This document shows positions 1 to 16,210 of a stretch of DNA of 16,210 nucleotides, piece by piece. The stretch comes from Rhodospirillaceae bacterium (GTDB lineage Bacteria > Pseudomonadota > Alphaproteobacteria > UBA828). Every line of letters starts with the position of its first letter. Position 1 is the stretch's first letter. The notes below the pieces were generated by a model. That model was not told the DNA's origin and made no database searches. It saw only the letters and a list, made by a program, of their open reading frames with translations. A program made the position numbers and the translations under genes. The stretch lies in assembly GCA_028819955.1 (NCBI GenBank), contig JAPPKP010000365.1:1-16210 (forward strand). Direction: 5' to 3'.

Positions 1-1
1 C

Positions 2-811
2 GTCATGCGCCGGCTCAACCTCTCCTACGGGCCGTCGATCATGGTCGGCGCGTTCATCGGCACCCTGGTCTATCTCGAGTTCAAGGCCAATGCGGTTGCG
101 ATTGCCGCGGCCACCGTGGTGGGCGCCGTGATCGTCGGCATCTACGTCGAGCGCCTGTGCTTCCGGGCCATTCGCCGGGGCGCGGCGGTGGCGTCGATGG
201 TCTCGAGCTTCGTCATATGGATGCAGCTCGAAGAGATCGTGACCGTGGTGTTCCCCGACCGGACCTACTTCTTCCCGCCCCTGGTCACGGCCGATCCGAT
301 CGATCTGGGGCCGTTCTTCTTCAAGGTGGAGAACATCGTGATGTTCGCCGTTGCGGCGGTCATGACCGTGCTGCTCCACTGGCTGCTGCAGTACACGCGA
401 TTCGGTCTGGCGCTCCGCGCCGTCTCCGAGAACCCGCGCGCGGCGCTCTTCATGGGCATCAACGTCGGCGCGGTCATGTTCCTGGCCTTCGTCATTGCAT
501 CGGCCTTCGGCGGCGTCGCCGCCTACCTCATCGTCAGCGCGGACGGCCAGATCACCCCGCTCTTCGGGCTCTGGGCCACCTTCAAGGGGCTGATCGCCAT
601 GATGCTGGGCGGCATGGGCTCGATCCCCGGCGCCATCCTCGGCGGGCTGCTGCTCGGCGTCGTCGAGGCCCAGAGCATCTGGTATCTCGGCACCGAGTAC
701 CGCGACCTCTCCGCCTACTTCCTGCTCTTCCTGTTCCTGGTCTTCCGGCCCGGCGGCCTCATGGGCCAGCTCGCCGTCGAGCGCGAGCTGGCGGCGACGC
801 GGCGCGTCTGA
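2..811 (+). CDS. livH: Branched-chain amino-acid ABC transporter permease LivH (5' partial)
   Basis: Inner-membrane permease of a Liv-type (HAAT) importer for branched-chain amino acids or related amides; it pairs with LivM to form the channel. The visible protein begins inside the family's first conserved block (RRLNLSYGPSIMVGAF, equivalent to the LNFAHGxxxMLGA segment of LivH), so about 30-40 N-terminal residues lie left of the window. The ATG at 5 is therefore probably internal and the frame is open back to position 2. Family hallmarks are the cytoplasmic coupling loop (TRFGLALRAVSENPRAALFMGI, about residues 130-150), the GGMGSIPGAILGGLLLGVVE segment and the terminal LVFRPGGLMG. The rest is hydrophobic with several membrane spans. 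The stop lies 3 bases before livM, so the two are translationally coupled. The transported substrate cannot be told from sequence: this family also carries urea, short-chain amides and aromatic compounds. Confidence 0.93.
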   Translation, partial: VMRRLNLSYGPSIMVGAFIGTLVYLEFKANAVAIAAATVVGAVIVGIYVERLCFRAIRRGAAVASMVSSFVIWMQLEEIVTVVFPDRTYFFPPLVTADPIDLGPFFFKVENIVMFAVAAVMTVLLHWLLQYTRFGLALRAVSENPRAALFMGINVGAVMFLAFVIASAFGGVAAYLIVSADGQITPLFGLWATFKGLIAMMLGGMGSIPGAILGGLLLGVVEAQSIWYLGTEYRDLSAYFLLFLFLVFRPGGLMGQLAVERELAATRRV

Positions 812-814
812 GCC

Positions 815-1726
815 ATGGACGATATCTATCTCATCACGATCCTCTCCAACATCGGCATGATCTCGTTCATCGCGCTCTCGGCCTATCTGCTGCTCGTGGT
901 GGGCGAGATCTCGTTCGGCCAGCAGGCCTTCTTCGCGGTCAGCGCCTACGGCTCCGGCATTGCGACTGCGATGTGGGGCTGGCCGATCTGGCTCGGCCTG
1001 CTTTGGGGCGCGCTGGTGGCCGGGGCGGCGGCGCTCGTGGTGGCGATCCCGACGGTGCGGCTCAGGGGGCTCTACTTCTCCGTCGCGACGCTCGCCTTCG
1101 CCGAGATGGTGCGGCTGATCTTCGAGATATTCAGGTACCAGGTGGAGATCGACGGCGAGCTGGTCGGCCCCGACGGCTCCGACGGCTTTCGCGACATCCG
1201 CGCCATCTACGACAGCAACGTCTCGGCCTTCGAGTACATGCTGATCATCTACGGGCTGCTGGCGGTGGTGCTCGTCGGCTTCCTGATCCTCGAGCGCTCC
1301 CGCCTCGGCGCGATCTTCCGGATGATCGGCGAGGACCCGATGCTGACGGAGATGCAGGGGCTCAACGTCACCAAGTACAAGATCCTTGCCGTCGTCATGG
1401 CCGGCATCGTCGCAGGCATCGGCGGCGCCCTCTATGCGCACCTCGCGACCTATGTCGAGCCCAAGATCTTCAACGTGATGCTGGGCGTGCACGCGCTCGC
1501 CTACGGCCTGATCGGCGGGCTGGGCACGGCGTTCGGGCCGCTGATTGGGGTCGCCATCGATATCGGCCTGCTGGAATCGATCCGCGCGATCTCCGGCTAC
1601 CGCATGATCGTCTTCGGCGGCCTGGTCGCCCTGCTGCTCATCGTGCGCCCGCGCGGGCTGCTGGACGAAGCCGCCATGCACTGGCTGCGCGGGCGCTGGC
1701 GAGGGTTGGTCCGTGCTGAGAATTGA
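815..1726 (+). CDS. livM: Branched-chain amino-acid ABC transporter permease LivM
   Basis: Second inner-membrane permease of the Liv importer, 303 aa, the normal length for the shorter LivM proteins. Hallmarks are the early GEISFGQQAFFAVSAYGSG segment, the VRLRGLYFSVATLAFAEMVR motif of the fourth to fifth span, the ABC-coupling loop SRLGAIFRMIGEDPMLTEMQG (about residues 166-186), and the C-terminal GGLGTAFGPLIG and RPRGLLDE blocks. The ATG follows the livH stop by 3 bases with no clear Shine-Dalgarno sequence, so translation is probably coupled to livH. Its 3' end overlaps the livG GTG start by 14 bases. The protein is complete with no frameshift. Assignment to the Liv/HAAT family is firm; the substrate is unknown. 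Confidence 0.94.
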   Translation: MDDIYLITILSNIGMISFIALSAYLLLVVGEISFGQQAFFAVSAYGSGIATAMWGWPIWLGLLWGALVAGAAALVVAIPTVRLRGLYFSVATLAFAEMVRLIFEIFRYQVEIDGELVGPDGSDGFRDIRAIYDSNVSAFEYMLIIYGLLAVVLVGFLILERSRLGAIFRMIGEDPMLTEMQGLNVTKYKILAVVMAGIVAGIGGALYAHLATYVEPKIFNVMLGVHALAYGLIGGLGTAFGPLIGVAIDIGLLESIRAISGYRMIVFGGLVALLLIVRPRGLLDEAAMHWLRGRWRGLVRAEN

Positions 1727-2468
1727 GGGCCTGAGCCGGTCCTTCGGGGGCGTCGCCGCCCTGGAGGCGCTCGATCTCGCGGTCGCGGACGGCGAGGTGG
1801 TGGGCCTCATCGGCCCCAACGGCTCGGGCAAGACGACGCTCTTCAACGTCATCACCGGCGTTCACCAAGCCGATACCGGCCGCGTCCTCCTGCGCGACGA
1901 GGACATCACCAGGAGCACGCCGGCCGGAATCGTCCGCCTCGGCATCGCGCGGACCTTCCAGAACCTCCGCATCTTCCAGCGCATGAGCGTGCGCGAGAAC
2001 GTCTGGGTGGCGCAGCACAGCCTGCCGGGCGTGGGGCCGCTGGCGCTGCTGTCCAACCGGTCCGCGGCCGAGCGGGCGCGGAAGGCGGAGGTCGATCGCC
2101 TGCTCGACGCGGTGGGCCTCGCCGATCGGCGGAACGTGCTGGCGGGCAGCCTGCCGCTCCCCGAACAGCGCCGGCTCGAGCTCGCCCGGGCGCTCGTGCG
2201 CTCTCCGGCGCTGCTGCTGCTGGACGAGCCGGCGGGTGGCATGACACCGGCCGAGACCGCGGAGATGGCCGCCCTCATCCGCGACTTCGCGGTGCCGGGG
2301 CGCACCTGCATCGTCATCGAGCACAAGCTCGACCTGATCTCGACGCTGTGCCAACGCCTCTGCGTCCTCAATTTCGGCCGCAAGATCGCGGACGGCGAGC
2401 CGGGCCGGGTCCTGGAGCAGGCCGACGTGCTGGAAGCCTATCTCGGTAGGGATGCAGTGAATGCTTGA
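1713..2468 (+). CDS. livG: Branched-chain amino-acid ABC transporter ATP-binding protein LivG
   Basis: Cytoplasmic ATPase of the Liv importer, 251 aa. Walker A is GPNGSGKTT (residues 34-42), the Q-loop is in the LivG-typical RTFQNLRIF block (Q83), Walker B is LLLLDEP (167-173) followed by GGMTPAE, and the switch histidine is in VIEHKLDLI (H204). The ABC signature is unusual: LivG proteins normally read LPYGxQRRLE here, while this protein reads LPLPEQRRLE (147-156), so the usually invariant signature glycine is replaced by proline. All other catalytic motifs are intact, and one such half-site in a LivG/LivF heterodimer may be tolerated. The start is GTG at 1713, inside the end of livM, which places residue 1 exactly where family alignments begin. 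It overlaps livF by 8 bases, consistent with equimolar production of the two ATPases. Confidence 0.93.
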   Translation: MLRIEGLSRSFGGVAALEALDLAVADGEVVGLIGPNGSGKTTLFNVITGVHQADTGRVLLRDEDITRSTPAGIVRLGIARTFQNLRIFQRMSVRENVWVAQHSLPGVGPLALLSNRSAAERARKAEVDRLLDAVGLADRRNVLAGSLPLPEQRRLELARALVRSPALLLLDEPAGGMTPAETAEMAALIRDFAVPGRTCIVIEHKLDLISTLCQRLCVLNFGRKIADGEPGRVLEQADVLEAYLGRDAVNA

Positions 2469-3177
2469 GATTCGCGACCTGCACCTCAGCTACGGCAAGG
2501 TGCGCGCCGTCCAGGGCGTCTCGCTGGAGGTCGCGGAGGGCGAGATCGTCGCCCTGATCGGCGCGAACGGCGCCGGCAAGAGCTCGACCATGCACGCGGT
2601 GTGCGGCATCGAGCGGCCGTCCGGCGGGCAGATTCGCTTTCTCGGCCAGGCGATCACCCGCCTGCCGCCGCACCGGATCATGCGCCGCGGCATCGTGCAG
2701 GTGCCGGAGGGGCGCCTGATCTTCGGCGGGCTGACCGTCGCCCAGAACCTGCGGCTCGGGGCCCATAACGTCGCAGGGCGCGCCAGGACCGAAGCGGACA
2801 TCGAGCGCGTGCTGGAGTCCTTCCCGATGCTGCGGGAGCGGCTCGACGAGCCGGGTGCTGCGCTCAGCGGCGGCCAGGCGCAGATGCTGGCGCTGGCGCG
2901 CGGGCTGATGGCGCGGCCCAGGCTCCTGATCCTCGACGAGCCGTCCCTCGGCCTCGCCCCGATCGCCGCGCTGGACGTCTTCGCCCTGATCCCCCGGCTC
3001 AGGGACGCGGGCGTGACGATCCTGCTGGTCGAGCAGAACGTGCGCCAGGCCTTGGCGATCGCGGACAGGGGCTACGTGCTGGAGAGCGGACGGATCATAC
3101 TGGACGGCAGGGCTGCAGAGCTTGCCGAGCACGAGCTGCTGGTCAGCGCCTATCTGGGTCTGCAACGAGGAGGGTGA
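2461..3177 (+). CDS. livF: Branched-chain amino-acid ABC transporter ATP-binding protein LivF
   Basis: Second cytoplasmic ATPase of the Liv importer, 238 aa, the usual LivF length. Walker A is GANGAGKSS (34-42). The LivF-specific block VQVPEGRLIFGGLTV follows (about 79-93). The ABC signature is canonical LSGGQ (135-139), Walker B is LLILDEP (155-161) followed by SLGLAP, and the switch region is the LivF-typical LLVEQN, where Q replaces the H of other ABC ATPases. The ATG at 2461 overlaps the end of livG and has an AGGGA Shine-Dalgarno element 8 bases upstream. With livH, livM and livG it completes the membrane complex; no substrate-binding protein is visible in the window, so it is presumably encoded upstream or elsewhere. 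Confidence 0.95.
   Translation: MLEIRDLHLSYGKVRAVQGVSLEVAEGEIVALIGANGAGKSSTMHAVCGIERPSGGQIRFLGQAITRLPPHRIMRRGIVQVPEGRLIFGGLTVAQNLRLGAHNVAGRARTEADIERVLESFPMLRERLDEPGAALSGGQAQMLALARGLMARPRLLILDEPSLGLAPIAALDVFALIPRLRDAGVTILLVEQNVRQALAIADRGYVLESGRIILDGRAAELAEHELLVSAYLGLQRGG
3168..3173 (+). promoter_or_regulatory. Strong Shine-Dalgarno site for the FixH-like gene
   Basis: AGGAGG lies 7 bases before the ATG at 3181 and overlaps the end of livF (stop at 3175-3177). It is the only consensus-grade ribosome site in the operon and fixes the start of the downstream gene. It suggests the FixH-like protein is translated efficiently from the liv transcript. Confidence 0.75.
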
Positions 3178-3180
3178 GCG

Positions 3181-3642
3181 ATGCGTACCTTGACGGCTGT
3201 GCTTGCGCTATCGGCGATGGTGACGGCGAGCGGTGCGGCCCTGGCGGGCGAGCGGGTCGCGGCCGACGTGAGCTGCACGGCGACGGCGGAGAAGCTGACC
3301 TACGACTGCACGATCGTGCTCCAGGGCAGGAAGAGCGGCGAGCCCGTGGCGGGCGCCGAGGTCGTGGTCAAGGCCGACATGCCGTCGATGCCGCTGGCGC
3401 ACAACGTGCGGCCCGTGAAGGCGGCGGCGGGCTCCACGCCGGGCCACTACACCGCCACACTGGAGCTTGAGATGCTGGGCGAATGGGCGCTCACCCTCGA
3501 CGTCAGCGGCCCGACCCGGGACCGCGTCGTCAGGAAGCTGGATTTCCGACCGGCCTCCGGCAATTCCGGGCACGAGCACGGGGAGATGACGGACCACGGC
3601 GACATGGATCGGGGCGGGATGAAGATGGAGGAGGCGCAGTAG
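3181..3642 (+). CDS. Exported FixH/YtkA-like protein with His/Met-rich metal-binding tail
   Basis: A 153-aa probable periplasmic protein. Residues 1-22 form a signal peptide with an ALA-type cleavage site (AALA before GER), leaving a mature protein of about 131 aa. The core resembles the FixH/YtkA-like Ig fold: GEPVAGAEVVVKADMPSMPLAH (the MPSMPLAH motif is at 67-74), then GHYTATLELEMLGEWALTLDV. Two cysteines (C32, C43) could form a disulfide. The C-terminal tail (about 131-150) is rich in His, Met, Asp and Glu (HEHGEMTDHGDMDRGGMKM), as expected for copper or another soft-metal ligand. Family members act in copper handling and cytochrome oxidase assembly, but that role is inferred here. It starts 3 bases after livF with a strong ribosome site, so it is co-transcribed with the transporter, an unusual partner for liv genes. 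Confidence 0.8.
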   Translation: MRTLTAVLALSAMVTASGAALAGERVAADVSCTATAEKLTYDCTIVLQGRKSGEPVAGAEVVVKADMPSMPLAHNVRPVKAAAGSTPGHYTATLELEMLGEWALTLDVSGPTRDRVVRKLDFRPASGNSGHEHGEMTDHGDMDRGGMKMEEAQ

Positions 3643-3697
3643 TCGGCGCGCCGGCGCTAGACGGGTAGCCTCAAGGGGCGCCCATTCCTTGTATAAT

Positions 3698-3731
3698 CGC
3701 CTCGCCGCGGCCGGGCGGTCGCGGCGAGGCG
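3698..3731. terminator. 12-bp perfect stem hairpin downstream of the liv/FixH operon
   Basis: CGCCTCGCCGCG and CGCGGCGAGGCG form a perfect 12-bp stem around a 10-base loop, about 55 bases after the FixH-like stop. No T-tract follows, so it is not a classical intrinsic terminator. It may end or stabilise the operon transcript, or be part of the repeat that directly abuts it. Confidence 0.4.
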
Positions 3732-3790
3732 GCGCCACCCTTCTCTCCCTCTCCTCCCTGGGGGGAGAGGGCCGGGGTGAGGTGGGCGCC
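3731..3790. repeat. CCCTCTCC/GGAGAGGG dispersed intergenic repeat
   Basis: The sequence contains CCCTCTCC, a short G/C loop, then GGAGAGGG and CCGGGGTGAGG. It is bracketed by GGCGCC at 3731-3736 and 3785-3790, giving an overall imperfect inverted repeat. Elements of this form are common between genes in many Proteobacteria, and their minus-strand translation gives the well-known spurious peptide LTPALSPQGGEGE, which occurs here. Only one copy lies in the window, so dispersal in this genome is inferred from general knowledge. Confidence 0.65.
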
Positions 3791-4073
3791 GTTCGAGCCG
3801 CCGTGACTTCGTAAGGTCGGATACTGCTCTAGAGCGCCACGCTGCATGTAGCTCAATCTGCAACTCCCCACTTGACCACGACCGTCTCACTCCCCATCTG
3901 AAAATCCGAACGATTCTAAGGGTGTAAACGACGACGGCTGGAGGAGACACCCCAGTCCGACGGGTTTCGCCCACCCCCGTGCCGGTCTCCGCGTCGCCCC
4001 CGTCGAGGCGGCGTCCGAGCCGTCCCGCGTTCCGCAGGCTCGCACACGCTCGCACACAGAAATTCGCCAATTC

Positions 4074-5568: not shown

Positions 5569-5967
5569 ATGCGCATCCGGCATAGCATTCCGCACCATCG
5601 GCGGACGCCGTTCCCGGCCGGGGACGGCCTCATGCACAACTGCGACCATTCCGAGGACGTCCGCATGCAGTGCACGGAGGCGACCACGGCGGCCGGGGTC
5701 CTGATCGGCAAGCGCAAGCTCAGGATCGACGAGCAGGACACCACGGGCGCGACGTACTCGGTCAAGCTCGGCAAGGTGCCGAGCGGGAACGTGACCGTTA
5801 CGGTCGGAGGGCACAGTGGCACCGATCTCATCGTGAATCCCACGAGTCTCACCTTCACCATGTCGAACTGGAGTGACGCGCAGGACGTGACCGTGACGGC
5901 CGGCAACGACTCGGACACGACTCAGGACACGGCCACCCTCACCCACAGCGCGACAGGTGGCGGCTAG
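5569..5967 (+). pseudogene. Truncated Calx-beta-like repeat adhesin fragment
   Basis: A 132-aa ORF. Residues from about 50 onward form one complete bacterial Calx-beta/Ig-like repeat: TTGATYSVKLGKVPSGNVTV, then GGHSGTDL, NPTSLTFTMSNWSDAQDVTV and DTATLTHSATGGG. Proteins of this type are usually very large secreted or surface proteins with many tandem copies. Here the frame stops right after the repeat, and no frame downstream resumes it. Residues 1-45 show no signal peptide. The simplest reading is a remnant of a larger gene cut on its 3' side near 5965, where the minus-strand nuclease gene overlaps it by 29 bases. It could instead be a small intact one-repeat protein. An alternative start at ATG 5632 also has a GGGGA element upstream. 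It follows the LuxR gene on the same strand, behind the third palindrome. Confidence 0.6.
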
Positions 5968-8485
5968 CGGACGCTTGGCTGCTTGTCGACCGCTGATCAG
6001 AAACCGGCGGCGCGTGGTCCATCGCTTTGCTCGGTGGGTCGGAAAGGATGGCACGTAGTCGCTCGAATTGTTCCTTGATCCACTGGGCGGCCTCGAGCCA
6101 TTCGCCTTCGTCGTCGCGCGTCCAGTCTGTCTGGACGGTTATCGTCATCCCGTCCGCGCTGGTCTTCTCAATATTCTCTCCGAGCACCTGGTCACCCATC
6201 TCCTCGCGGATTTTCAGAGAATACGTTCGCATTCGCGCCGCCCGTTCTACCGACGCCTGGCGTTCTCCTGCCCGGATGTAAAGCCAAAGCAGCTCCGGGT
6301 TGCCGACGTAGATGCCGATCCGGTCGCCCGCAGCGTTCAGGGGAGCGCTCCACTGAGACTTTCCTCGCCAATAGTCCTTCTGTCCCGGAATGCCACCTTC
6401 GCGTTCCTTGAAGAGCTTCCAAAACGCCTGGGCCTGAGTGTTCTCTTCGAACTCGACTTCGACAGAGACGCCGCAGCGCTCGCCCATCTTCCGGCAACGC
6501 TCGGCGCTCGTGGCGAAGTCCTGGTTGTAGGGGTACAGCACATGCCTTTCGTGCCCCGGCACTGCGCGCATGGTGCACGCACCCACCGAAGTGTCGGGTA
6601 CATATTGGCTGGCGAGATGCACGTTCGACCTGATCGCCTCACCGGACAATCTTTGGGCGTTGATCGGGTCCCGGCTCAGGAGCGCCGCCGCAACGTTCAA
6701 TACCATCTGACTTGCAGTGCTCTCTGCGTGCCAGGGGCTATCCTCGATCCGCCAGCGAAGTCTGGCTGAAGGACTCTCAATCTCGCGCACGGGCGCGGGC
6801 TGCTCGGGCCAGGGCCAGCGGTCGAGGGCTCTGTGGGCCAGAAATTCCGCGCGCCGCTCAAGCGCCTCTTCATTCCACTCCGTTTCGTCCGCGAGGTTTC
6901 TCGTGATGCCAATCGAGCTCTCGCGGTACACCTCGCACTTCGCTGCGAACGTACCCGTCCCCATCGCCGTGTTTGTGACGTCTCCGCTCAAAGTCAGGTT
7001 GGGCAGCCGGTCGCTGTAGCGACCGTGTATTTCTTCGGCCTCCTCGCCTAGGGACCGCTTCCACTCGTCCGTGAGTTTTTGCGGCATCACGTGCTCGATC
7101 GTCAGGCGGTCACGCGCTGGTGCCTCCTCGCGATGCTCGGCTTCCATCAGTTCGCAAAGAACCGCAAACGCGGATCGGGTCGCGCCCCCTCCGTAGGCCT
7201 TGCGGGTGCGAATTCCCTCGCTGATCTCTTCGTCTCTCGGTACTCCCACCCGCGTGTTGCGGAGCCGTTGAAGCCTGCCGAGCCAATAGTCGACATAGTC
7301 CTCGCCGGCACCGGGACCCGGTCCATGAGCGAACTCGGCCGCGGCCTTGTTCATCCCGGCCATCGGTCTCTCAGCCAACCACATGCGGGTCGTCCACGTA
7401 CCAATGGCTGCAAGGACCTTCGCGAGCGCTTCTTCAGTCTCTTTCGAACCGCCGTTTTCGCTCGCGTCGCTCAGCAACCGCAGTGTCAGGGGCCGGTGAA
7501 CGTCGATTCTCATTGCGCGGAGATGGCGCAACTCTCTGTCCACCCTCCGATTGCGATGAGGGTCCGCTGTGCCAGTGATGGTCCCGTACAGCCCGGCGAG
7601 GCGCGCGAGATCGCGACACAGCGCCGGTCGATCGCCGGCCTGTCCCTCTCGCACCGCCCAGCGTCGCAATCCCTCGTAGACACGATCGATGCCCTGAATC
7701 TCGCCCGTCCGCCAGCGAAGAACGTCCCGCAGGAATACGTCCGTGGTTTCGGTCGTTTGTTCGGCGCCCAGCGTTCGCTCGATTTGACGCCAGTGATTGT
7801 CGTGGAGGTCCTGTTGCTCCGCATCCGGGAGGCCCATGAGCAGCCAGTTCTTGACCTTCTCGCTCTCCGTCAGCGGACGCCCGGTGGCGTTCAGACTCTC
7901 GAAAATCTGCTGTGGGTCTTCGTTGGCGTGGAGGCCGATGCTGACCACACGCAGCCGCTCGAGGCCCCGTAGCAATAGGGCAACGTCATTGCTGGCAACC
8001 AGGCGACGCGCAATCCGCCAAGCCTGAGCTACGGCGCCGGCACCCGTGTACGTGCCTTCGAGGCCCAGGCGGTATTCCTCGTCGTCGCCGTCCTGGAGCC
8101 GTAGCTTGCGGAACTTCTCAGGAGTCTTGCCGGGGTTCGTCAGTCGATCGTCGCGAACGATCTGAGCGGTCCAGTCCCCGCATCGGCCCTCGGACCCGAG
8201 CTTAGCGGCGATAGAGGCCAAGAGGATGCTGACGGTCGTCAGCCTCTGTTGGCCGTCGACAACCCGAAATATCTTCACTACCCCCGCCGCGCCGGGCTCG
8301 GGAAAGGTGAGGAGCGTGCCGCCGTAGTGCGCTGCCTCGGGGCCGGCGACCGCGACGGTGAGAAGATCCTCGACCAGCCGCTCGATGTCGGCTTGACCCC
8401 AGCGGTATCGACGCTGCCAGCGCGGCACGACGTACTGGACCTGTCCGTTCAGGAGCTCCAGAAACTCGATGTGGTGGGCGTGCAT
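5939..8485 (-). CDS. GmrSD-like DUF262/DUF1524 restriction nuclease
   Basis: An 848-aa cytoplasmic protein with the two-domain core of GmrSD-type (type IV) modification-dependent restriction enzymes. The DUF262 (GmrS-like) domain has QRRYRW (24-29), VVDGQQRLTT (75-84; the DGQQR nucleotide-binding motif) and FESLNATGRPLTESEKVKN (195-213). The DUF1524 (GmrD-like, HNH) domain has IEHVMPQ (463-469, with H465) and NLTLSGDVTN (496-505), then FAAKCEVY. All signature residues are present, so it is probably active. Residues about 565-815 form an extra C-terminal domain, tentatively DUF4268-like (IGIYVGNPELLWLYI; then DDEGEWLEAAQWIKEQFERL). The last 25 or so residues are low-complexity and read antisense into the Calx-beta fragment, so the native end may have been altered at a junction. 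The ATG at 8485 has an AGAAGG site about 8 bases upstream. It lies 131 bases behind the type IIG gene, probably co-transcribed. Modified-DNA specificity is inferred from family. Confidence 0.85.
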   Translation of the reverse strand: MHAHHIEFLELLNGQVQYVVPRWQRRYRWGQADIERLVEDLLTVAVAGPEAAHYGGTLLTFPEPGAAGVVKIFRVVDGQQRLTTVSILLASIAAKLGSEGRCGDWTAQIVRDDRLTNPGKTPEKFRKLRLQDGDDEEYRLGLEGTYTGAGAVAQAWRIARRLVASNDVALLLRGLERLRVVSIGLHANEDPQQIFESLNATGRPLTESEKVKNWLLMGLPDAEQQDLHDNHWRQIERTLGAEQTTETTDVFLRDVLRWRTGEIQGIDRVYEGLRRWAVREGQAGDRPALCRDLARLAGLYGTITGTADPHRNRRVDRELRHLRAMRIDVHRPLTLRLLSDASENGGSKETEEALAKVLAAIGTWTTRMWLAERPMAGMNKAAAEFAHGPGPGAGEDYVDYWLGRLQRLRNTRVGVPRDEEISEGIRTRKAYGGGATRSAFAVLCELMEAEHREEAPARDRLTIEHVMPQKLTDEWKRSLGEEAEEIHGRYSDRLPNLTLSGDVTNTAMGTGTFAAKCEVYRESSIGITRNLADETEWNEEALERRAEFLAHRALDRWPWPEQPAPVREIESPSARLRWRIEDSPWHAESTASQMVLNVAAALLSRDPINAQRLSGEAIRSNVHLASQYVPDTSVGACTMRAVPGHERHVLYPYNQDFATSAERCRKMGERCGVSVEVEFEENTQAQAFWKLFKEREGGIPGQKDYWRGKSQWSAPLNAAGDRIGIYVGNPELLWLYIRAGERQASVERAARMRTYSLKIREEMGDQVLGENIEKTSADGMTITVQTDWTRDDEGEWLEAAQWIKEQFERLRAILSDPPSKAMDHAPPVSDQRSTSSQASASRHLSRCG

Positions 8486-8562
8486 GGACTTACCTTCTTC
8501 TGACTACAGCGCGACCTCCGCATCCGGGTGGCCCGCGTCTCAGGGAGAGTCGCCGGAGGATC

Positions 8563-8614
8563 CTGGCTCCTTCGCCAAGTTGTAGCGCGAATTATTGGCG
8601 GACACAGGAGCCAG
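8563..8614 (-). promoter_or_regulatory. Nested inverted repeat between the two restriction genes
   Basis: CTGGCTCCT (8563-8571) pairs with AGGAGCCAG (8606-8614). Inside it CGCCAA (8573-8578) pairs with TTGGCG (8595-8600), giving a two-tier hairpin with a small bulge. It starts 3 bases after the type IIG stop on the minus strand. No T-tract follows, so it may act as an attenuator, processing or stability element setting the nuclease dose rather than as a full terminator. The rest of this 131-base gap holds only the downstream gene's ribosome site. Confidence 0.5.
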
Positions 8615-8616
8615 AC

Positions 8617-11600
8617 CTAACGAGGAATGAAGAAACGGCTGCTGCCGTTCTGTCCGTCGATCTCCTGTTGTGCGACGCCGGCGGCGACGAGGGTCTGCAG
8701 AGCCTTCTCCACTCCCTTCACACGCCGAGATGAATTCCTGCCGCTGAAGGCGACGCCCAGGGTTTCCGGCGCCACCGGGCCGGGAGCGCGGCTCAGCATG
8801 TCGCGGACGATGCTGATGCGGTCCATCTCGTCTTTTGGCCAGGCCGGCTTGCCATCGGCGGGTGCCGGAACGACCAGCTGAGCCTCGACCTGCTCGACGT
8901 CTTCGGGTGTCTTCACTTTGTGAGCCAGCTTGGGCTTCTGATAGTCAGGCCGCAGCCAGCGCACGGTGCCGCGCCGCTCTTCCGCTGCCCGCTTCCGGTT
9001 CAGGGCGACGAGGCGCGTGAGCAGCTCTTCCTCTGCGTCCTCTTGCTCCGGCGTCTTGTGCGGCGAGGGCATCGTCGCCCCCGGCTTGCCCACCAGAGCG
9101 GGGATCAGGTCGGCCCAACCATAGGCCTCGAACACGGCACGGTCGATGTCGTCGTGGATGTCCTTCAGGACGGAAACCAGTCCCGCCTCGTGGATAGCCT
9201 TCTCCTTCGCCGAGAGGGGCGGCACGCCGCAGCCGCTCTCCAGCTCCCGCACCCGCTCCAGCACGTTGTAGAGCCCGGTCATGGTGAGGAAGTCGTGTTC
9301 GGCCATACACTCTCTTCGGAACGCATCTAGGCGATCGCCCAACTCGTTCAGCCCTCGAGCGGCCCGATTAGCGGGAAACGGGAATGGATCAAAAGTCTTG
9401 GTCTTTGCGTACACAGGGTCGTTTCCTACACCCATCCAATTGCCACAGTAAATTGACCAGTGAGCGTGCACGCGTGAACTCAATATAGACAATGACGAAC
9501 CGTCGTTCAGGCCAATACCGATTAGCTTGTTATCGGGTCGAGTATTCGCGGCAAGAAACTGGAAGAACCGATGCTTCGATGTTTCGACCGTCGCAACGTA
9601 GCGCTCCAACGGCTCCAGTATGGGGCGCCAGTCAGGTCGGGGTTCGCCGAATATCCACCATTTCTCGCGATAGACTTTGCGGCTGTTGTGATCCCGCTCC
9701 GGTTTCACCCGCTCGACGACATGTTGGTACACCTTCGGGAACCGTTCACGTACCTCGTCGGCAGTCAGCGGATAGAGGTCGATCACCATGACCCCGCGCG
9801 GACGTTGAGCGATGTCGCGGCCGTGCCGGTACGGCAGGATGTGATCTTCCAGACCAGGCGTTGACCCGAGGCCGAGCGCAGCGGCCTGCTGCGGGGTCGC
9901 GATGAAACCGGACCCGTGCAGCTTGACGCCGGGGCTGGATATCAGGTCGTTGGCCATCAGCGGCTGGACCGCCGTGATGTCGGCGCCGACCTTCAGGTTG
10001 CCGTTGATCCTGCCTTCCCGCTCCCTCAGCTCGACGACCGGGGTGTCGGTGTTCAGGCCGCTCTCGCGTTCCACCGCGGCCAGCGTGCCCTCCCGCTCGC
10101 CGCGGGCCGCGACGGTCATGGCGATGCGCACCGCCGCCTTGCCGGCCGCCTTCTGCCAGGGGTGGTCGGGCACGGCATAGACCAGGGACAACGGCTCCTT
10201 CGCCCGCGCGTGCCGCTCGATCACGCGGCGGGAGAAGGTCTGGGTCACGGAGTTGGTGGTGATGAAGCCGAAGCGGCGCAGCGGGTTCGTCTTCCCCTTC
10301 ACCGGCTTGCGCAGCAGGCGGGTCGCTGCCTCGTCCCAGAAGTGCATGACAAAGTCGGCGCCACCGGGGAGTTTCGGACGGGCCTTCCACGCCGCCTCGG
10401 CATAGCCGCTCCCCAGCTCCGCGCGCATGTCCTTGCCGCCGATGAAGGGCGGGTTGCCCACGATGAACTCGGCCTCCGGCCATGCGGCCGGGCGCGGGTT
10501 CTCGTAGCGGTAGAGCTCCACCGTCGCGTCGGGATCGGGAACCTCCTCGCCCGTGATCGGGTGGAGCTTCATGGTCACGCCGTCCCACTGGGAGAGCGGC
10601 ACGCCGTTCTCGTCGCGGAGCAGTTCTTGCTTGTCCCAGGCCAGGATCGCGTCCTGCTCCTTGATCGTGCCGTAGGCGTGGAGCACCGGCTCGGCGATCT
10701 GCTCGGCCTTGACGGTGCGGAGCTGCCACTTGAGATAGCCGATCCACAGCACGAGATCGGCGATGGCGACGGCGCGGGGGTTGAACTCCAGGCCGTGGAA
10801 CTGGTGTGGACTCACGGTCTCGCCCTTGATCGCGAGGCGCGGGTTCTCGCCAAGGTCGTCCAGCGCGTCCAGCACCTCGCCTTCCAGCCGCTTCATTAGC
10901 TCCAGCGAGACATAGAGGAAATTGCCGGTGCCGCAGGCGGGGTCCAGCACGCGGGTGGTGCAGAGCCGATGGTGAAACTCCTTGATCGCTTGCAGCGCCG
11001 CCTGGTGCTTGCCCTCCCCCTCCAGCGCATGGGCGCGGGTCAGCGCCTCCTCCCAGTCGGCGCGCAGGGGCTCGACGATCGTGGGGACGACCAGCCGCTC
11101 CACATAGGCGCGCGGCGTGTAGTGGGCACCGAGCTTCGCGCGCTCCTTCTTGTCGAGCGCACGCTCCAGCAGCGTGCCGAAGATGGCGGGCTCGACGTCG
11201 CGCCAGTCGCGCCCAGCGGCGATGTGAAGCTCGCGGATGTCGTCCTTCTCCAGCGCAATCGCCTTGCGCCTGCTGAACAGCGTGCCGTTGAAGCGCTTGA
11301 GCGTCGCGTTCAGATGCGGGGCGTAGCCGCCCTCGTCCATGACCCGCCACAGACTCTCAAGCGCCGGGGCGAAATACTCGGGCGTCTGGACCATCTCGCC
11401 CAGCAGTGTCTCGAACCCCTGCTTCGGCAGCAGGTCGACATCCTCGGCGAACATGGTGAAGAGGCAGCGCATGAGGAACTCCGCGACCTCCTTGGGATGA
11501 TGCTTCCCCTCCAGATTGAGGGCGATGCGGGCGAGGCGCGCGGCGATGTCGCGGGTGACCTCGGCGCTGTGCTTCGCCGGATCGAGGGAGTGAGGGGCGC

Positions 11601-12249
11601 GCCAGATCGCGCGCAGACGGTCCCGGACGGCCGGGTCGCGCAGGCCTTCCAACGGAATGGAATAGCCGTCCCGATCCGGGAACTGGGCGTAGTTCTTCCC
11701 CTGGCCGGAGAAGTCGGCGTAGACCTCGATCACGTGGCCCACATCGACGACGAGGATGAAGGGCGGCCAGCCGTGCTCCTTCGGCAGCGCGCGGGCGTAG
11801 TCCTCCGCCTGTCGCTTGGCGGCGCGCATTACCTTGTCCCAGCGCCCCGTGCCGCGCGTGGCTGCCCCCGATTTGACTTGCGTGGCGTCCTCGGGGATCA
11901 GGTTCGGCTGGCAGGGCTCGGTCTTCTTCGCCTTGATGCGCTTGGCGGACTGCTTGGCCTCCATGACGAAGCAGTTGCGCTTGTACAGGTCGATCCAGCG
12001 CCGGGCCGTCGTGCCGTCGTCGAACTTGTAGTCGACGCGCCGTTCGAAGACGTAATCGTTGCGTTCGACTTCTTCCTGCGCCGGGTCTGGTCTCGGCACA
12101 CCGAGCAGATCGCAGAGCTCGTTGGCGAAGGTCTGAAAGTTCGCCATCTCCGCGCCGCCGGACTGCTTCCACCGGCCAATGAAGGCCTCGATGGCGGCGT
12201 GGTCGGCGCTGTCGTCGCCCGGTGGTACTTGCGAATCCTCCGCACTCAT
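8617..12249 (-). CDS. MmeI-like type IIG/IIL restriction enzyme-adenine methyltransferase
   Basis: A 1210-aa single-chain restriction-modification enzyme. The N-terminal nuclease (about 40-230) shows a PD-(D/E)XK pattern: D87, nine residues, then E97-A-K99. A helical linker ends with LGAHYTPRAYVERLV. The gamma-type N6-adenine methyltransferase follows, with motif I LDPACGTGNF (D436 onward, SAM binding), HGLEFNPRAVAIADLVLW, and catalytic motif IV GNPPF (N599-F602). TTNSVTQTFSRRVI comes next, as in MmeI. The target-recognition region (about 765-970) includes GNWMGVGNDPVY and TFDPFPFP. A C-terminal extension (about 1060-1210) ends in a winged-helix-like segment beyond usual MmeI length. The open frame extends upstream to 12960, but homology-like sequence begins at the ATG at 12249, so that start is used. 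There is no Shine-Dalgarno site; a leaderless promoter is possible. The recognition sequence cannot be read from sequence. Every motif is intact, so it is probably active. Confidence 0.9.
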   Translation of the reverse strand: MSAEDSQVPPGDDSADHAAIEAFIGRWKQSGGAEMANFQTFANELCDLLGVPRPDPAQEEVERNDYVFERRVDYKFDDGTTARRWIDLYKRNCFVMEAKQSAKRIKAKKTEPCQPNLIPEDATQVKSGAATRGTGRWDKVMRAAKRQAEDYARALPKEHGWPPFILVVDVGHVIEVYADFSGQGKNYAQFPDRDGYSIPLEGLRDPAVRDRLRAIWRAPHSLDPAKHSAEVTRDIAARLARIALNLEGKHHPKEVAEFLMRCLFTMFAEDVDLLPKQGFETLLGEMVQTPEYFAPALESLWRVMDEGGYAPHLNATLKRFNGTLFSRRKAIALEKDDIRELHIAAGRDWRDVEPAIFGTLLERALDKKERAKLGAHYTPRAYVERLVVPTIVEPLRADWEEALTRAHALEGEGKHQAALQAIKEFHHRLCTTRVLDPACGTGNFLYVSLELMKRLEGEVLDALDDLGENPRLAIKGETVSPHQFHGLEFNPRAVAIADLVLWIGYLKWQLRTVKAEQIAEPVLHAYGTIKEQDAILAWDKQELLRDENGVPLSQWDGVTMKLHPITGEEVPDPDATVELYRYENPRPAAWPEAEFIVGNPPFIGGKDMRAELGSGYAEAAWKARPKLPGGADFVMHFWDEAATRLLRKPVKGKTNPLRRFGFITTNSVTQTFSRRVIERHARAKEPLSLVYAVPDHPWQKAAGKAAVRIAMTVAARGEREGTLAAVERESGLNTDTPVVELREREGRINGNLKVGADITAVQPLMANDLISSPGVKLHGSGFIATPQQAAALGLGSTPGLEDHILPYRHGRDIAQRPRGVMVIDLYPLTADEVRERFPKVYQHVVERVKPERDHNSRKVYREKWWIFGEPRPDWRPILEPLERYVATVETSKHRFFQFLAANTRPDNKLIGIGLNDGSSLSILSSRVHAHWSIYCGNWMGVGNDPVYAKTKTFDPFPFPANRAARGLNELGDRLDAFRRECMAEHDFLTMTGLYNVLERVRELESGCGVPPLSAKEKAIHEAGLVSVLKDIHDDIDRAVFEAYGWADLIPALVGKPGATMPSPHKTPEQEDAEEELLTRLVALNRKRAAEERRGTVRWLRPDYQKPKLAHKVKTPEDVEQVEAQLVVPAPADGKPAWPKDEMDRISIVRDMLSRAPGPVAPETLGVAFSGRNSSRRVKGVEKALQTLVAAGVAQQEIDGQNGSSRFFIPR

Positions 12250-12255
12250 GAAGCG

Positions 12256-12283
12256 AGGATAGCGAATAGGGTTGGCCGTAAAA
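12256..12283 (-). promoter_or_regulatory. Candidate promoter for a leaderless type IIG transcript
   Basis: On the minus strand TTTTAC (12283-12278) and TATCCT (12261-12256) are spaced by 16 bases, and the -10 box ends 6 bases before the ATG at 12249. Transcription would start about at the A of the start codon, which would explain the absence of a ribosome site. Both boxes are imperfect, so this is a weak prediction. Confidence 0.3.
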
Positions 12284-12320: not shown

Positions 12321-12619
12321 CTACTTCACGCGATACCAGAGTTCGTCGACCGCCGCCGCGGTCAGAAAGCCGTTCGTTCGGGGCGAGGGGAAAATCCAGG
12401 TTGTCTTGCGGGGGAGGCCGTAGACGTTGGCGCGCGGCAGACGAGAGCCAGATCGTGCGCGGCGCGGTCTTGCTGTCGCTGAACGGCGGAAAATTGGTCG
12501 ATTCGACCCGCTTGGAGGGCCTCATAGCGGTTTTGGCTGGCGCAGGATGTGGCGAGCGGGCTCGACCACGGCGGCGCGTACCACGGATCAGGTGCAGTCG
12601 GTCGAGTAAGGGTTGGCAT
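12321..12619 (-). pseudogene. Frameshifted C-terminal relic of an unrecognised protein
   Basis: Reading the minus strand through two frame changes gives a coherent-looking protein end. The first part is DPWYAPPWSS then NRYEALQAGRIDQ. A +1 slip in the AAAA run at 12490-12493 leads to FPPFSDSKTAPRTIWLSSA. A second single-base slip near 12430-12441 leads to RANVYGLPRKTTWIFPSPR, then NGFLTAAAVDELWYRVK and a TAG at 12323-12321. The composition (Trp, Tyr, Phe-rich) is unlike the Arg/Pro/Ala-rich shadow frames around it. The family is not recognised. It sits just upstream of the type IIG gene in the same direction, so it may be a decayed former member of the cassette. Sequencing errors at the two slip points are an alternative. 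Confidence 0.5.
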
Positions 12620-13230
12620 AGGAACACGAGAGATTCCATGGACCGGCGGAAACTTTGATACAGCATATTCATTCGTTCAGAGTTTGATGGTGGTGACGAC
12701 GACAACCCGAGCCCAGCTGCTCTCCGTCGGGCAAAACGTGGAATCGTCGGAGGCCTGGCGATGGAAGCACCCGGTGACTGAACAGCACTTCGACTCCCCG
12801 GCACAACCGCACTTATGTATGACAACAGTGCGCGACGATACGCAGGCATAATTGCCAATCCTCTTGCATTTTGCTTACACGTTGCTGTCGTGGATGCTCT
12901 ACAGGAGTGGGCGGTGGGTGCAATATGGAGTTGAAACAACCGGTTACGCTGGCATGACATGGCGACACGGGGACAGACTTCCCCTAGCGCGACGCAGGAT
13001 GTGACATTGGCGTCAAATCCGAATTAGGCCCGCACCGCCGCGCGCGGGCGCTTGGGCGCGACAAGTCATCGTCAGGCGGCAAAGATTGCAACTGCAGCGT
13101 CTCATGGGAGACTGCGACTGAATATGCGATTGGGGTCTTGCGTAGCTGAGGGAGGTTATTGATTTCGACGCACGGTTGACCCAATGTTTCTCGGCTAAAA
13201 TGGGGAGCTGAAGCCGGAGCGACCCTACGG
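12620..13230. other. Gene-free interval right of the defence cassette
   Basis: About 610 bases with no convincing gene on either strand and locally lower G+C (about 48% over 12841-12900 by hand count). Small open frames are present but match nothing. The only structures noted are a short GGGGA/TCCCC stem (12969-12984) and scattered single half-sites of the CCCCAAT type near 13129 and 13180. This is where the right edge of the inserted cassette most likely lies. No direct repeat with the left edge was seen. Confidence 0.5.
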
Positions 13231-13641
13231 ATGGCTGAAACGGGCGAAACCGCCACTGCTTCCCCGCCGGAACCCTTCCTGCTCTACGACGGCGAATGCC
13301 CGTTCTGCAGCTACTACGTCGCCAAATCGCAGTTCGAGGCCCGCATCGGCAAGCCCCTGCACCTGATCGACGGCAGGGGCGCGCCCGGCCTCGTCGACCG
13401 GCTGCGGCGCGAGGGCTTCGATCTCGAACAGGGCATGATCCTGGCGCTCGACGGCCGGCACTATCACGGGGCCGCGGCGATGGTCGCGCTCAAGGCCATG
13501 AGCGCCGGCCCCGGCCGCTTCAACGCGCTCGCGCGCTGGTTCGCGTCGAGCCCTGCGCGGGTGCGTGCAGCCTATCCCTGGCTGCGTCGGCTGCGGCGCG
13601 CGGCGCTGCTGGCGAAGGGCGTGCCCCGGTTTCCGGACTGA
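13231..13641 (+). CDS. DCC-family thiol-disulfide oxidoreductase-like protein (DUF393)
   Basis: A 136-aa protein of the DCC (DUF393) family, named for its conserved Asp-Cys-Cys. The defining motif is LLYDGECPFCSYYV (D20, C23, C26), a thioredoxin-fold CxxC active site in the family's usual N-terminal position, followed by family-like HLIDGRGAPGLVDRLRREGFD and HYHGAAAMVALKAMS. The C-terminus (about 105-130) is basic and helical. No signal peptide is seen, so it is probably cytoplasmic or membrane-associated. The ATG at 13231 has a GGAG element about 11 bases upstream. It converges on the HTTM gene with only 6 bases between stops; DCC and HTTM/VKGC domains are often neighbours or fused, so a joint redox-linked membrane function is plausible. 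The specific reaction is unknown. Confidence 0.85.
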   Translation: MAETGETATASPPEPFLLYDGECPFCSYYVAKSQFEARIGKPLHLIDGRGAPGLVDRLRREGFDLEQGMILALDGRHYHGAAAMVALKAMSAGPGRFNALARWFASSPARVRAAYPWLRRLRRAALLAKGVPRFPD

Positions 13642-13647
13642 CCCGCA

Positions 13648-15231
13648 TTACTCTTTCACCCCGCGCGCGGGGGCGGCCTCGGCCTCGGAGGCAAGGTCCG
13701 GTGCGCCGAGCGCGTCCAGCATGGCGCCGAAGCGGGCGGCGGTAATCGGCGGATACCAGTCGGGGGCCAAACCTTCGGCGGCCTGCATCCGCGCGGGGCG
13801 GAGCACCCAGGGGTCCTCGCCGAACCAGTTGATCCCGTCGACGGCGGCGAGGTCCACGTCGGGGTCGATCAGTCGCCGATAGGGCTGGCCGTTCACGTTC
13901 TTGACGACGTCGGCGTAGATTCTCACATCGCCGACGCCGGTCTCTGCGTAGTGCGCCTTCATCAGGTGGACGAAGTGCAGCAGCATCTCGGGCTTGGCGA
14001 ACACCATCCAGGTCTGCAGGGGGTCGAGGTGCGCCTGCATGTCGATGACCCAGGCCTCGTCCTCCGGCGTGACCGCGATGAGGCGACCGTCTGCGCCGTG
14101 GACGTAGAGCATCATGCGCCACGAGAACTTCTGGCCCTCTTCGGTCCATCCCACGTATCCCTCGAAGAGGGTGTCGCGGACCGGCAGCCAGATCTGGACC
14201 AGGGCGTAGAGGACGAGTGCGGCCAGCGCCGCCGGGTGCAGGGGCCGGAAGGCGGCGCGCTCTCCCCCGCGTGCCGTCGGCCCGCCACCGACGAAGCGTG
14301 CGGCTTGGCCGATCCACGCCGGCACGGGCGGGCGTGGCAGCCGCAGCCATGTCAGGGCGGCGCCGATCCGCCCGGCGAGGATCGTGGGCCACGCGGGCGA
14401 GAACATGATCGTCGTGGCCGCGATGGTCATCCAGGGGAAGACGCCGATGTTGAACAGATGGGCGTTGGTTGCGTGGAAGGCGCAATAGAGCAGGAACACC
14501 CAGAGCCGGGTCTTCGACCAGAGCAACAGCGGCGCACCCACGGTGTGGAGCAGGATGATCAGAACGGGGGCCGCGAGCGTGATCCAGTGCACCTCGAAGA
14601 GGGTCGAGAGCGGCGACCAGGGGCGCTCCAGCATCCAGGTTCTGAGCGGCTCGCCGCGCAGCCAGTCGACCTCGATCTTCACGAGGCCGGCGAAGACGAG
14701 GATCACCTCGACCTGGAACTGCAGGATGAGCAGGTTCCAGAGCGGCACCTTCGTCGTACTCCCGATGCGCCCGAGGCGGCGGTCCAGCGACCAGCAGCGA
14801 TGCGCGTCGGTGCAGCCCAGCAGCAGCCCGAAGAGCGCGATCATGTAGAAGTGGTTGAGGTAGAGAAGCTGATCGAGCAGGAAGAAGTAGATGAAGATCG
14901 CGTTGAAGCCCCAGATCGCGATCCGGTAGAAGGCGCCGAGCGTCACCATCACGCAGCAGAGCCCGCAGAGGCTCCACAGCAGGTGCAGCCAGGGCGCCGG
15001 CAGCGCAGGCACCTCCAGCCCGTAGTAGGGAAACAGGATGGCGCGGTCGATGTAGAAGCCCGTGAGCCAGTCGTACCTCAACAGGTGGACGACGTCGTTG
15101 AGCATCAGCAGGCCGAAGGCGATGCGGAAGACGGCGAGCGACTGGCCGCAGACCGGCCGGGCGGCGAGGGTGCGGATGCGGCCGAGCGCGCCAGTCATGG
15201 CGTCGCCCGCGCGGCCGGCCGGCTGCGTCAC
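13648..15231 (-). CDS. HTTM/vitamin K-dependent gamma-carboxylase-like membrane protein
   Basis: A 527-aa polytopic membrane protein of the HTTM (horizontally transferred transmembrane) / VKGC-like group. The N-terminal two-thirds hold several hydrophobic spans. Family blocks are LNHFYMIALFGLLLG, FAGLVKIEVDWLRGEPLRTW (K185), HATNAHLFNIGVFPWM (253-268) and the C-terminal VRDTLFEGYVGWTEEGQKFS followed by WRMM (351-374), matching the conserved WTEEGxxFSWRMML segment of VKGC homologues. Eukaryotic members carboxylate glutamate using reduced vitamin K; bacterial substrates are mostly unknown, so no reaction is assigned. The GTG at 15231 is preferred because GAGGGG lies just upstream; an ATG at 15198 is the alternative. 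It follows the MacB-like permease by 24 bases on the same strand, so the two may be co-transcribed. Confidence 0.87.
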   Translation of the reverse strand: MTQPAGRAGDAMTGALGRIRTLAARPVCGQSLAVFRIAFGLLMLNDVVHLLRYDWLTGFYIDRAILFPYYGLEVPALPAPWLHLLWSLCGLCCVMVTLGAFYRIAIWGFNAIFIYFFLLDQLLYLNHFYMIALFGLLLGCTDAHRCWSLDRRLGRIGSTTKVPLWNLLILQFQVEVILVFAGLVKIEVDWLRGEPLRTWMLERPWSPLSTLFEVHWITLAAPVLIILLHTVGAPLLLWSKTRLWVFLLYCAFHATNAHLFNIGVFPWMTIAATTIMFSPAWPTILAGRIGAALTWLRLPRPPVPAWIGQAARFVGGGPTARGGERAAFRPLHPAALAALVLYALVQIWLPVRDTLFEGYVGWTEEGQKFSWRMMLYVHGADGRLIAVTPEDEAWVIDMQAHLDPLQTWMVFAKPEMLLHFVHLMKAHYAETGVGDVRIYADVVKNVNGQPYRRLIDPDVDLAAVDGINWFGEDPWVLRPARMQAAEGLAPDWYPPITAARFGAMLDALGAPDLASEAEAAPARGVKE

Positions 15232-15255
15232 CGCCCCTCGTTGCGTGCGGCCACG

Positions 15256-16210
15256 CTATTCCCCCTGCAGGGCGACGATGGGGTCGAGGCGGGAGGCCTG
15301 GTACGCGGGCTGGAAGCCGAAGAAGATGCCGACCGCCGTGGACACGCCGACGCCGACGACGATCGAGGCCGGGGAGATGAAGAACTCCCACGCGTAGATA
15401 TGGGCTATCCCGTAGGCGGCACCGGTGCCGACGATCACCCCGGCGATGCCGCCGCTGAGGGTCAGGATCAGGGCCTCGATCAGGAACTGGCGCTGGATGT
15501 CGCCGCGGTTCGCGCCGAGCGCGCGGCGGACGCCGATCTCGCGGCGCCGCTCCGCCACCGAGATCAGCATGATGTTCATCACTCCGATGCCGCCGACGAG
15601 GAGGCTGACGCAGCCGACCGCAGCCAGCAGCAGGGTCATGAGCCCGAGCTGCGATTCCATCTGCCCGATGAGCTGCTCGGCGCTGACGACCTCCAGCTCG
15701 AGCCCCCTGGCGCGCTCGGCGAAGTAGGCCCGCACGTCGCGCGTGGCATCGGCGTAGTGCACGCCCGGCGCCGCGCGGGCGACGATCAGCTCGATCTGCG
15801 CTTCGGGCTCGGTGCGGCGAACGGTGGTGATGGGCACGAATATCGAGCGGTTCGCGTCCACCGAGAACGGCAGCGCGTAGGTCTCCCGCGCGGACTCCAG
15901 CGCGCCGATCACCGTATAGAGGCGCTCGCCGACCTCCATGGTCTGGCCCACCAGGGCACCGGCCCCGCGCCGGCGCATGGCGTCCGCCACGTCCGCGCCG
16001 ACGACCGCGAAGTAGCGGCCCCGGTCGAGGTTCGAGACGAAGCGCCCCTCGGCCATCTGCAGCTTGTTCACGTCCGCGAAGGAGGCGGAGACCCCCTGCA
16101 CCGAGCCGCTGCCGACACGCTTGCCGGCGTAGCGGAAGCTGCCCTGCGTCTCGATTCGGGGCGCCGCCTCGGAGACGGACGGCAGCACTTCCGCCAAGGC
16201 GAGGGCGTCC
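15256..16210 (-). CDS. MacB/FtsX-type ABC transporter permease (5' partial)
   Basis: The C-terminal 318 or so residues of a MacB-family permease; the frame is open to the window edge. The first in-frame start codon (TTG at 16197) is internal, because the family's periplasmic-domain sequence continues before it (DALALAEVLPSVSEAAPRIE). The MacB periplasmic core is visible: VQGVSASFADVNKLQMAEGR, FAVVGADVADAMRRRGAGAL and EVGERLYTVIGALE. The FtsX domain then has LLLAAVGCVSLLVGGIGVMN, IMLISVAERRREIGVRRALG and the C-terminal SRLDPIVALQGE, with three membrane spans. Such proteins are non-canonical, mechanotransmitting ABC permeases working with a LolD/MacB-type ATPase and usually a MacA-like adaptor, exporting peptides, toxins or drugs. 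The partners would lie right of the window. The substrate is unknown. Confidence 0.9.
   Translation of the reverse strand, partial: DALALAEVLPSVSEAAPRIETQGSFRYAGKRVGSGSVQGVSASFADVNKLQMAEGRFVSNLDRGRYFAVVGADVADAMRRRGAGALVGQTMEVGERLYTVIGALESARETYALPFSVDANRSIFVPITTVRRTEPEAQIELIVARAAPGVHYADATRDVRAYFAERARGLELEVVSAEQLIGQMESQLGLMTLLLAAVGCVSLLVGGIGVMNIMLISVAERRREIGVRRALGANRGDIQRQFLIEALILTLSGGIAGVIVGTGAAYGIAHIYAWEFFISPASIVVGVGVSTAVGIFFGFQPAYQASRLDPIVALQGE

Follow-up and report, generated by a model that had tools for sequence, protein, structure and literature searches.

An MmeI-like type IIG enzyme and a GmrSD-like protein recur together as a small, probably anti-phage, two-gene unit

The window analysed here, a stretch of 16,210 nucleotides of contig JAPPKP010000365.1 (assembly GCA_028819955.1, Rhodospirillaceae bacterium), carries two adjacent reverse-strand genes, one for an MmeI-like type IIG restriction enzyme-methyltransferase (MME) and one for a single-chain GmrSD-like protein with DUF262 and DUF1524 domains (GMR). 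We found that the two occur side by side again in some other bacteria, as a compact defence unit, and that their linkage exceeds chance, and we consider it fairly probable that they form a mobile, horizontally acquired anti-phage restriction cassette in which each protein works in parallel with the other. An earlier interpretation made from the letters alone (the sequence-only reading) had named both families and had described both genes as intact, on the same strand and 131 bases apart; these points were borne out by the open reading frames (ORFs) and conserved motifs, by Pfam and PADLOC for MME, and by Pfam for GMR.

Recurrence of the linked pair

Both ORFs are open and intact, and MME lies 5′ of GMR (Table 1). 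The MME reading frame remains open further upstream, to 12960, and the ATG at 12249 was taken as its start because relatives are mostly ~1200-1250 aa long and because DNA similarity to G383, a genome of another family in the same class, ends at 12268. G383 carries the two genes in the same order with a gap of 133 bp, and blastn aligned window positions 6047-12268 with its DNA at 81% identity in a block ending close to the limits of the gene pair; beyond this block, no further blastn similarity was found in the 19.5 kb around the G383 pair. Identity to G383 was 82% for both genes and 62% for the spacer. The spacer RNA folded no better than shuffled sequences and no terminator-like sites were listed inside the spacer. 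The two genes are presumably transcribed together.

In a class-level sample of 385 genomes searched with a GMR alignment at E<=1e-60, three genomes matched, two of them with distant and partial sequences, and only G383 held a full-length close relative. The 120 listed of 798 GMR relatives were also compared with the 142 listed MME relatives (the window's protein included), each protein match being represented by its longest contig and shared contigs being recognised by exactly equal size in bp. Seven exact contig coincidences were obtained, compared with a mean of 0.16 and a maximum of 3 in a control of 1000 shifts, and seven further contigs thus very probably carry both genes. One coincident contig is 7078 bp long, which leaves at most ~0.8 kb beside the two genes and so limits their distance in this one case of the seven; the comparison concerns shared presence on a contig, whatever the gene order. 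Among the matches listed, all seven coincidences fell in the 31 GMR rows of at least 76% identity (29 with contigs of 6.3 kb or more) and none in the 89 rows below 76% (74 with contigs of 6.3 kb or more; Fisher p 8e-5), a contrast that is partly built in because only the top listed MME relatives are visible. The recurrent linkage expected from the sequence-only reading was therefore seen in the window, in G383 and in the seven contig coincidences. Other genome searches gave no new pair: one distant match was found in 40 genomes, none at E<=1e-90 in 398, only G383 in 28 and again in 385 (largely the class sample), and in a search of 72 genomes GMR-clade genes turned up in five, in no case next to a close MME.

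Domains and motifs of the two proteins

MME holds MmeI_N (Pfam, 2.9e-24), the helical spacer MmeI_hel (1.6e-16) and MmeI_Mtase (1e-27) in one chain, all above the curated cut-offs, as is characteristic of MmeI-like type IIG enzymes. Its residues 19-1196 matched the PADLOC model REase_MTase_IIG (PDLC03627) with 1483.5 bits, and MmeI (5hr4) was its sole PDB sequence match at E<=0.01. In an alignment of 143 sequences, the window's included, the D87-x9-E97-A-K99 motif was kept in all sequences with a letter at the respective position (D in 137/137, E in 138/138 and K in 138/138), and DPACGTGNF and GNPPF were almost invariably kept; we take the former to be a PD-(D/E)XK nuclease motif and the latter two to be amino-methyltransferase motifs. 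The nuclease and methyltransferase motifs are both intact. MME is probably an enzyme that marks the DNA of its host and cleaves DNA lacking the mark. Its target-recognition block (TRD) overlaps the PF20466 MmeI_TRD domain of relatives (~residues 769-978 in the relatives' own numbering); PF20466 was unreported for the window MME at E<=0.001 and was present in 6/6 relatives, which had been picked because their precomputed domains include it.

GMR matched GmrSD_N (Pfam, 1.4e-25) and GmrSD_C (2.7e-21), and D77-GQQ-R81 together with H465, N496 and N505 were invariant in 23/23 sequences, so that GMR combines a DUF262 domain bearing DGQQR with a DUF1524 domain bearing HNH residues, as in the GmrSD family. 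By our own assignment, H465, N496, N505 and K516 would form an HNH nuclease site, and GMR probably cuts chemically modified DNA. An AlphaFold2 model of middling confidence (mean pLDDT 66.9, pTM 0.49) was closer to DndI (9jfl) and SspE (6jiv, 7dri) than to BrxU (7p9m, 7p9k) in Foldseek and VIA-align 2 comparisons, suggesting that GMR shares the fold of SspE and DndI. The GMR sequence profile at E<=0.01 found DndI, SspE and an 818-residue DUF262 protein (20yv, 20yw); BrxU was not found at this threshold. The match to DndI and SspE stops near GMR residue 563-569, leaving the C-terminal third as an extra part, in which the model from ~residue 575 on has pLDDT values of mostly 60-91 and the DUF4268 match is weak (13/23 members at E<=1, the best at 0.002). 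GmrSD-type domains are known to be accompanied by DUF4268 (PMC4619093).

SspE requires the host phosphorothioate mark for its activation, and DndI is active without the mark and is released from marked DNA (PMC9646914, PMC11662687). Their reader residues, Y30 in SspE and Y25 in DndI, sit in a P-x-Y-Q-R motif, where DndI Y25 was counted from the alignment and SspE was placed by equating the three successive residues given in the paper, Y30, Q31 and R32, with those of the motif. GMR does not carry the Tyr of this Y-Q-R reader motif: the position is Trp, as in 118/118 motif-bearing relatives among the 120 GMR relatives listed, whereas DUF262 loci outside the GMR clade have Tyr (60), Phe (19) or Trp (0) there. 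The relatives L003, L004 and L005, which stand alone, also carry Trp, so that Trp is a trait of the clade and not a sign of pairing.

Table 1. Coordinates of the MME-GMR pair and of sites within the two proteins, in window positions
Feature	Position	Strand	Basis
MME, MmeI-like type IIG restriction enzyme-methyltransferase, 1210 aa	8617..12249	-	ORF, Pfam, PADLOC, relatives
MME PD-(D/E)XK-like nuclease motif D87-x9-E97-A-K99	11950..11991	-	conservation in 143-sequence alignment
MME methyltransferase motif DPACGTGNF, residues 436-444	10918..10944	-	conservation in relatives
MME methyltransferase motif GNPPF, residues 598-602	10444..10458	-	conservation in relatives
MME target-recognition block, residues 841-1020, types differ among paired relatives	9190..9729	-	divergence comparison
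Spacer, 131 bp (G383: 133 bp)	8486..8616	.	identity 62% to G383
GMR, single-chain GmrSD-like (DUF262-DUF1524) protein, 848 aa	5939..8485	-	ORF, Pfam, relatives
GMR W23-Q24-R25, site of SspE Y30-Q31-R32 and DndI Y25	8411..8419	-	alignment, papers PMC9646914, PMC11662687
GMR NTPase motif D77-G-Q-Q-R81	8243..8257	-	invariant 23/23
GMR putative HNH-type nuclease motif region (H465, N496, N505, K516)	6938..7093	-	invariant 23/23
GMR C-terminal third, residues 561-815, weakly DUF4268-like	6041..6805	-	profile match, structure model

Solo relatives and covariation

Of the class genomes, 15/385 carried an MME relative at E<=1e-100, and tblastn placed GMR alongside only in G383; since the contig ends at or soon after MME in G206, G067 and G057, 11 of the other 14 are informative. 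Reciprocally, G786 (L003/L154), G848 (two copies), G849, G850, G839 (partial), G788 (L005) and G787 (L004, two in tandem) carry GMR-clade genes that have no close MME as a neighbour; next to one G848 copy, a short stretch weakly matches the N-terminus of MME (37% over ~77 residues, E 1e-4). Whole-genome searches for MME (E<=1e-10 for G786, G787 and G788; E<=1e-30 for G848, G849, G850, G839 and G786) returned nothing beyond partial matches (27-48% identity), which lay in G786, G788 and G839. All 7 such genomes examined (7/7) thus hold a GMR-clade gene and no close MME, and a linked MME is therefore not needed there. Among 80 DUF262 loci with flanks of unequal length, an MmeI-like gene lay near only one, L049 (Akkermansia), at 24% identity to the MME query, and a weak methyltransferase-domain match to MME lay near L056.

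An obligate pair is thus unsupported as a general rule, as the examined relatives of both genes are usually solo; this rejection is limited in that the full-length or near-full-length solo GMR matches share 49-65% identity with the GMR of the window and the solo genes (<=65% over the whole protein) fall outside the subclade with pairs. On the adjacency of homologues, which the sequence-only reading had wanted checked, the linkage recurs but the examined relatives of each gene usually stand alone.

Several arrangements were seen at related loci. L049:5660-13844 encodes the MmeI-like enzyme, a Shedu protein (SduA_C), a DUF262 protein and an HSDR_N protein in a row. At L122:8154-12608, an MmeI-like gene is followed after 9 bp by a gene for a type IV nuclease of the Mrr type (Mrr_N, Mrr_cat), making another type IIG and type IV neighbour pair. 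The tandem genes at L004:10001-13381 are each ~49% identical to the window's GMR. Two extra copies of GMR residues 1-40 lie directly upstream of a full-length GMR at L151:9323-9624 and L152:9473-9774, with 67-70% identity to the window's GMR.

Covariation was assessed by Mantel comparison of amino-acid divergence matrices from few pairs, among them the partial proteins P0094, P0060, P0242 and P0246. With seven pairs, GMR divergence was related to that of the whole MME (r 0.61, 16/5040 permutations) and to that of MME outside the TRD (r 0.83, 5/5040), but not to that of MME residues 701-1090 (r -0.03, 2722/5040). With nine pairs, the relation held for MME residues 17-700 (r 0.57, 45/20000 permutations), and in the eight pairs having a TRD, P0242 being excluded because it has none, residues 841-1020 gave r 0.28 (2569/20000). 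Compared with MME outside the TRD, the parts of GMR gave r values of 0.56 (DUF262), 0.82 (middle), 0.48 (HNH) and 0.77 (C-terminal third); the HNH part and the MME methyltransferase domain gave only 0.07.

Among individual pairs, P0001 has the GMR nearest to the window's in the set (9% different) and a TRD block 34% different; P0016 has the GMR nearest to that of G383 (8% different) and a TRD block 42% different; G383 and P0001, whose GMRs are 18% apart, share a TRD type (13% apart); and the TRD of the partner of P0019 is 65-67% different from every other. The MME target block appears to have been replaced, or at least to have changed very rapidly, without the pair coming apart. The matching divergence that the sequence-only reading had wanted compared was accordingly found outside the TRD and not in the TRD block. 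Because the TRD varies independently of GMR, the results speak against matched specificities, and the proposed co-selection is unsupported, the backbone being related to GMR and the TRD block showing no clear relation in these small samples. Such variation fits a GMR that is indifferent to the MME motif, and the backbone correlation could also be explained by shared host descent.

Mode of action, rival explanations and acquisition

In the reading that we prefer, MME would be a one-protein restriction-modification system that methylates its own site in the host and cuts incoming DNA lacking the mark, and GMR would be a modification-dependent, type IV-like nuclease, driven by nucleotides, that by itself attacks phage DNA protected from MME by modified bases. 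They would work side by side without having any sequence specificity in common, and would be co-inherited because together they cover unmodified and modified phages; a change of TRD with no matching change of GMR is as expected if GMR ignores the MME site. The two complementary layers that had been suggested earlier are plausible by analogy with BREX and BrxU, for which complementary layers were demonstrated experimentally (PMC8565348). That precedent of a GmrSD-like protein beside BREX was rightly cited, and RloF, SspE and DndI provide further ones.

The pair could instead be one system, in which GMR, like DndI or SspE, reads the N6-methyladenine made by MME and thereby spares DNA or activates itself. 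Both best structural matches of GMR depend for their activity on a host mark read at an aromatic residue of DUF262 (PMC11662687, PMC9646914), and the Trp fixed at that position in the GMR clade would suit such a reader. We nevertheless regard this as improbable, since no close MME was found anywhere in the genomes of the Trp-bearing relatives L003, L004 and L005 and since GMR varies without regard to the MME target-recognition block, so that at most adenine methylation would be read regardless of sequence. A bolder form of the idea, to which we give still less credence, would make the cassette an adenine-methylation counterpart of Ssp and Dnd: MME would write N6-methyladenine, the re-shaped, Trp-bearing DUF262 pocket of GMR would read the methyl group in any sequence, and unmarked DNA would be attacked. 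If this were true, a swap of the MME target domain would change the target sequences and leave the nuclease unchanged.

Mere hitchhiking, in which unrelated restriction genes were joined once in the ancestor of the subclade and have stayed linked with no functional benefit, would account for the confinement of the coincidences to the GMR rows of at least 76% identity, which fits a single origin although the listing of only the top MME relatives favours such a result, and GmrSD genes do generally cluster with restriction systems (PMC4619093). It is a rather unlikely account in our judgement, somewhat less so than the mark-reading ones: G383 keeps gene order and spacing although its spacer identity has dropped so far, the block of similarity stops close to the limits of the genes, and the MmeI-like gene of L122 adjoins a different type IV nuclease gene, Mrr.

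Among known systems, BREX-BrxU in the defence island of plasmid pEFER (PMC8565348) likewise places an adenine-methylating system against unmodified DNA beside a single-chain DUF262-DUF1524 nuclease, but its modification side is a multi-gene operon whereas here it is one MmeI-type IIG protein, and GMR (848 aa) differs from BrxU in its extra C-terminal third and its closeness to DndI and SspE. MME resembles MmeI and MmeI-like type IIG enzymes in its N-terminal nuclease, helical spacer and methyltransferase and in its nearly full-length match to the PADLOC IIG model; it is longer (1210 aa versus the 919-residue chain in 5hr4), and only a minority of the MmeI-like relatives examined have a GmrSD-like companion gene. 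DndI and SspE share with GMR the two domains, the DGQQR motif and a location next to a host-DNA modification module, but they belong to phosphorothioate loci (PMC9646914, PMC11662687), whereas the neighbour of GMR is a methyltransferase-nuclease and no phosphorothioation genes (dnd/ssp) were present among the six Pfam-scanned window ORFs, MME and GMR included; the reader Tyr and the C-terminal third differ as described above. RloF is likewise a GmrSD-like gene within a restriction-modification locus, of type I (hsd) and not type IIG (PMC4619093), a likeness drawn from its published description. In the literature searched, which comprised open-licence papers only, no description of an MmeI-like and GmrSD-like pair was found. 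The pair extends the set of loci that join a host-DNA modifier to a DUF262-DUF1524 nuclease (BREX-BrxU, Ssp, Dnd, type I-RloF) by a minimal case of two proteins. Since both partners have solo relatives and the specificity block varies naturally, it offers a clean test system, in which one may ask whether such nucleases answer to a host mark or act independently.

The unit looks horizontally acquired. GMR was absent at E<=1e-60 from 21/21 genomes of the family of G001, 8 of them of its genus; G001 is the nearest comparison genome, with 27% of sampled words common to the window, and kinship with the host is presumed. Genomes of the genus matched the left flank (1-3650, whole or in part) at 86-93%, and G001 matched the right flank (13024-16210) at 96%. 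Transfer is suggested both by the absence of GMR from these nearest-family genomes and by matched flanks enclosing a variable segment. At its 3′ end, GMR overlaps a gene fragment for a threonine/valine-rich repeat-type protein (5569-5967, +), the gene having apparently been cut by the cassette; positions 5633-5966 of this fragment are 90% identical in G001 (G001:C27), which places the left cassette edge near 5967. Directly upstream of MME, ~150 bp at 12326-12479 have copies of 76-80% identity in several same-genus genomes; this stretch may represent a dispersed repeat that borders the cassette. Within the left part of the window, positions 3725-3834 gave matches of ~55-110 bp at 80-95% identity at many sites in same-genus genomes.
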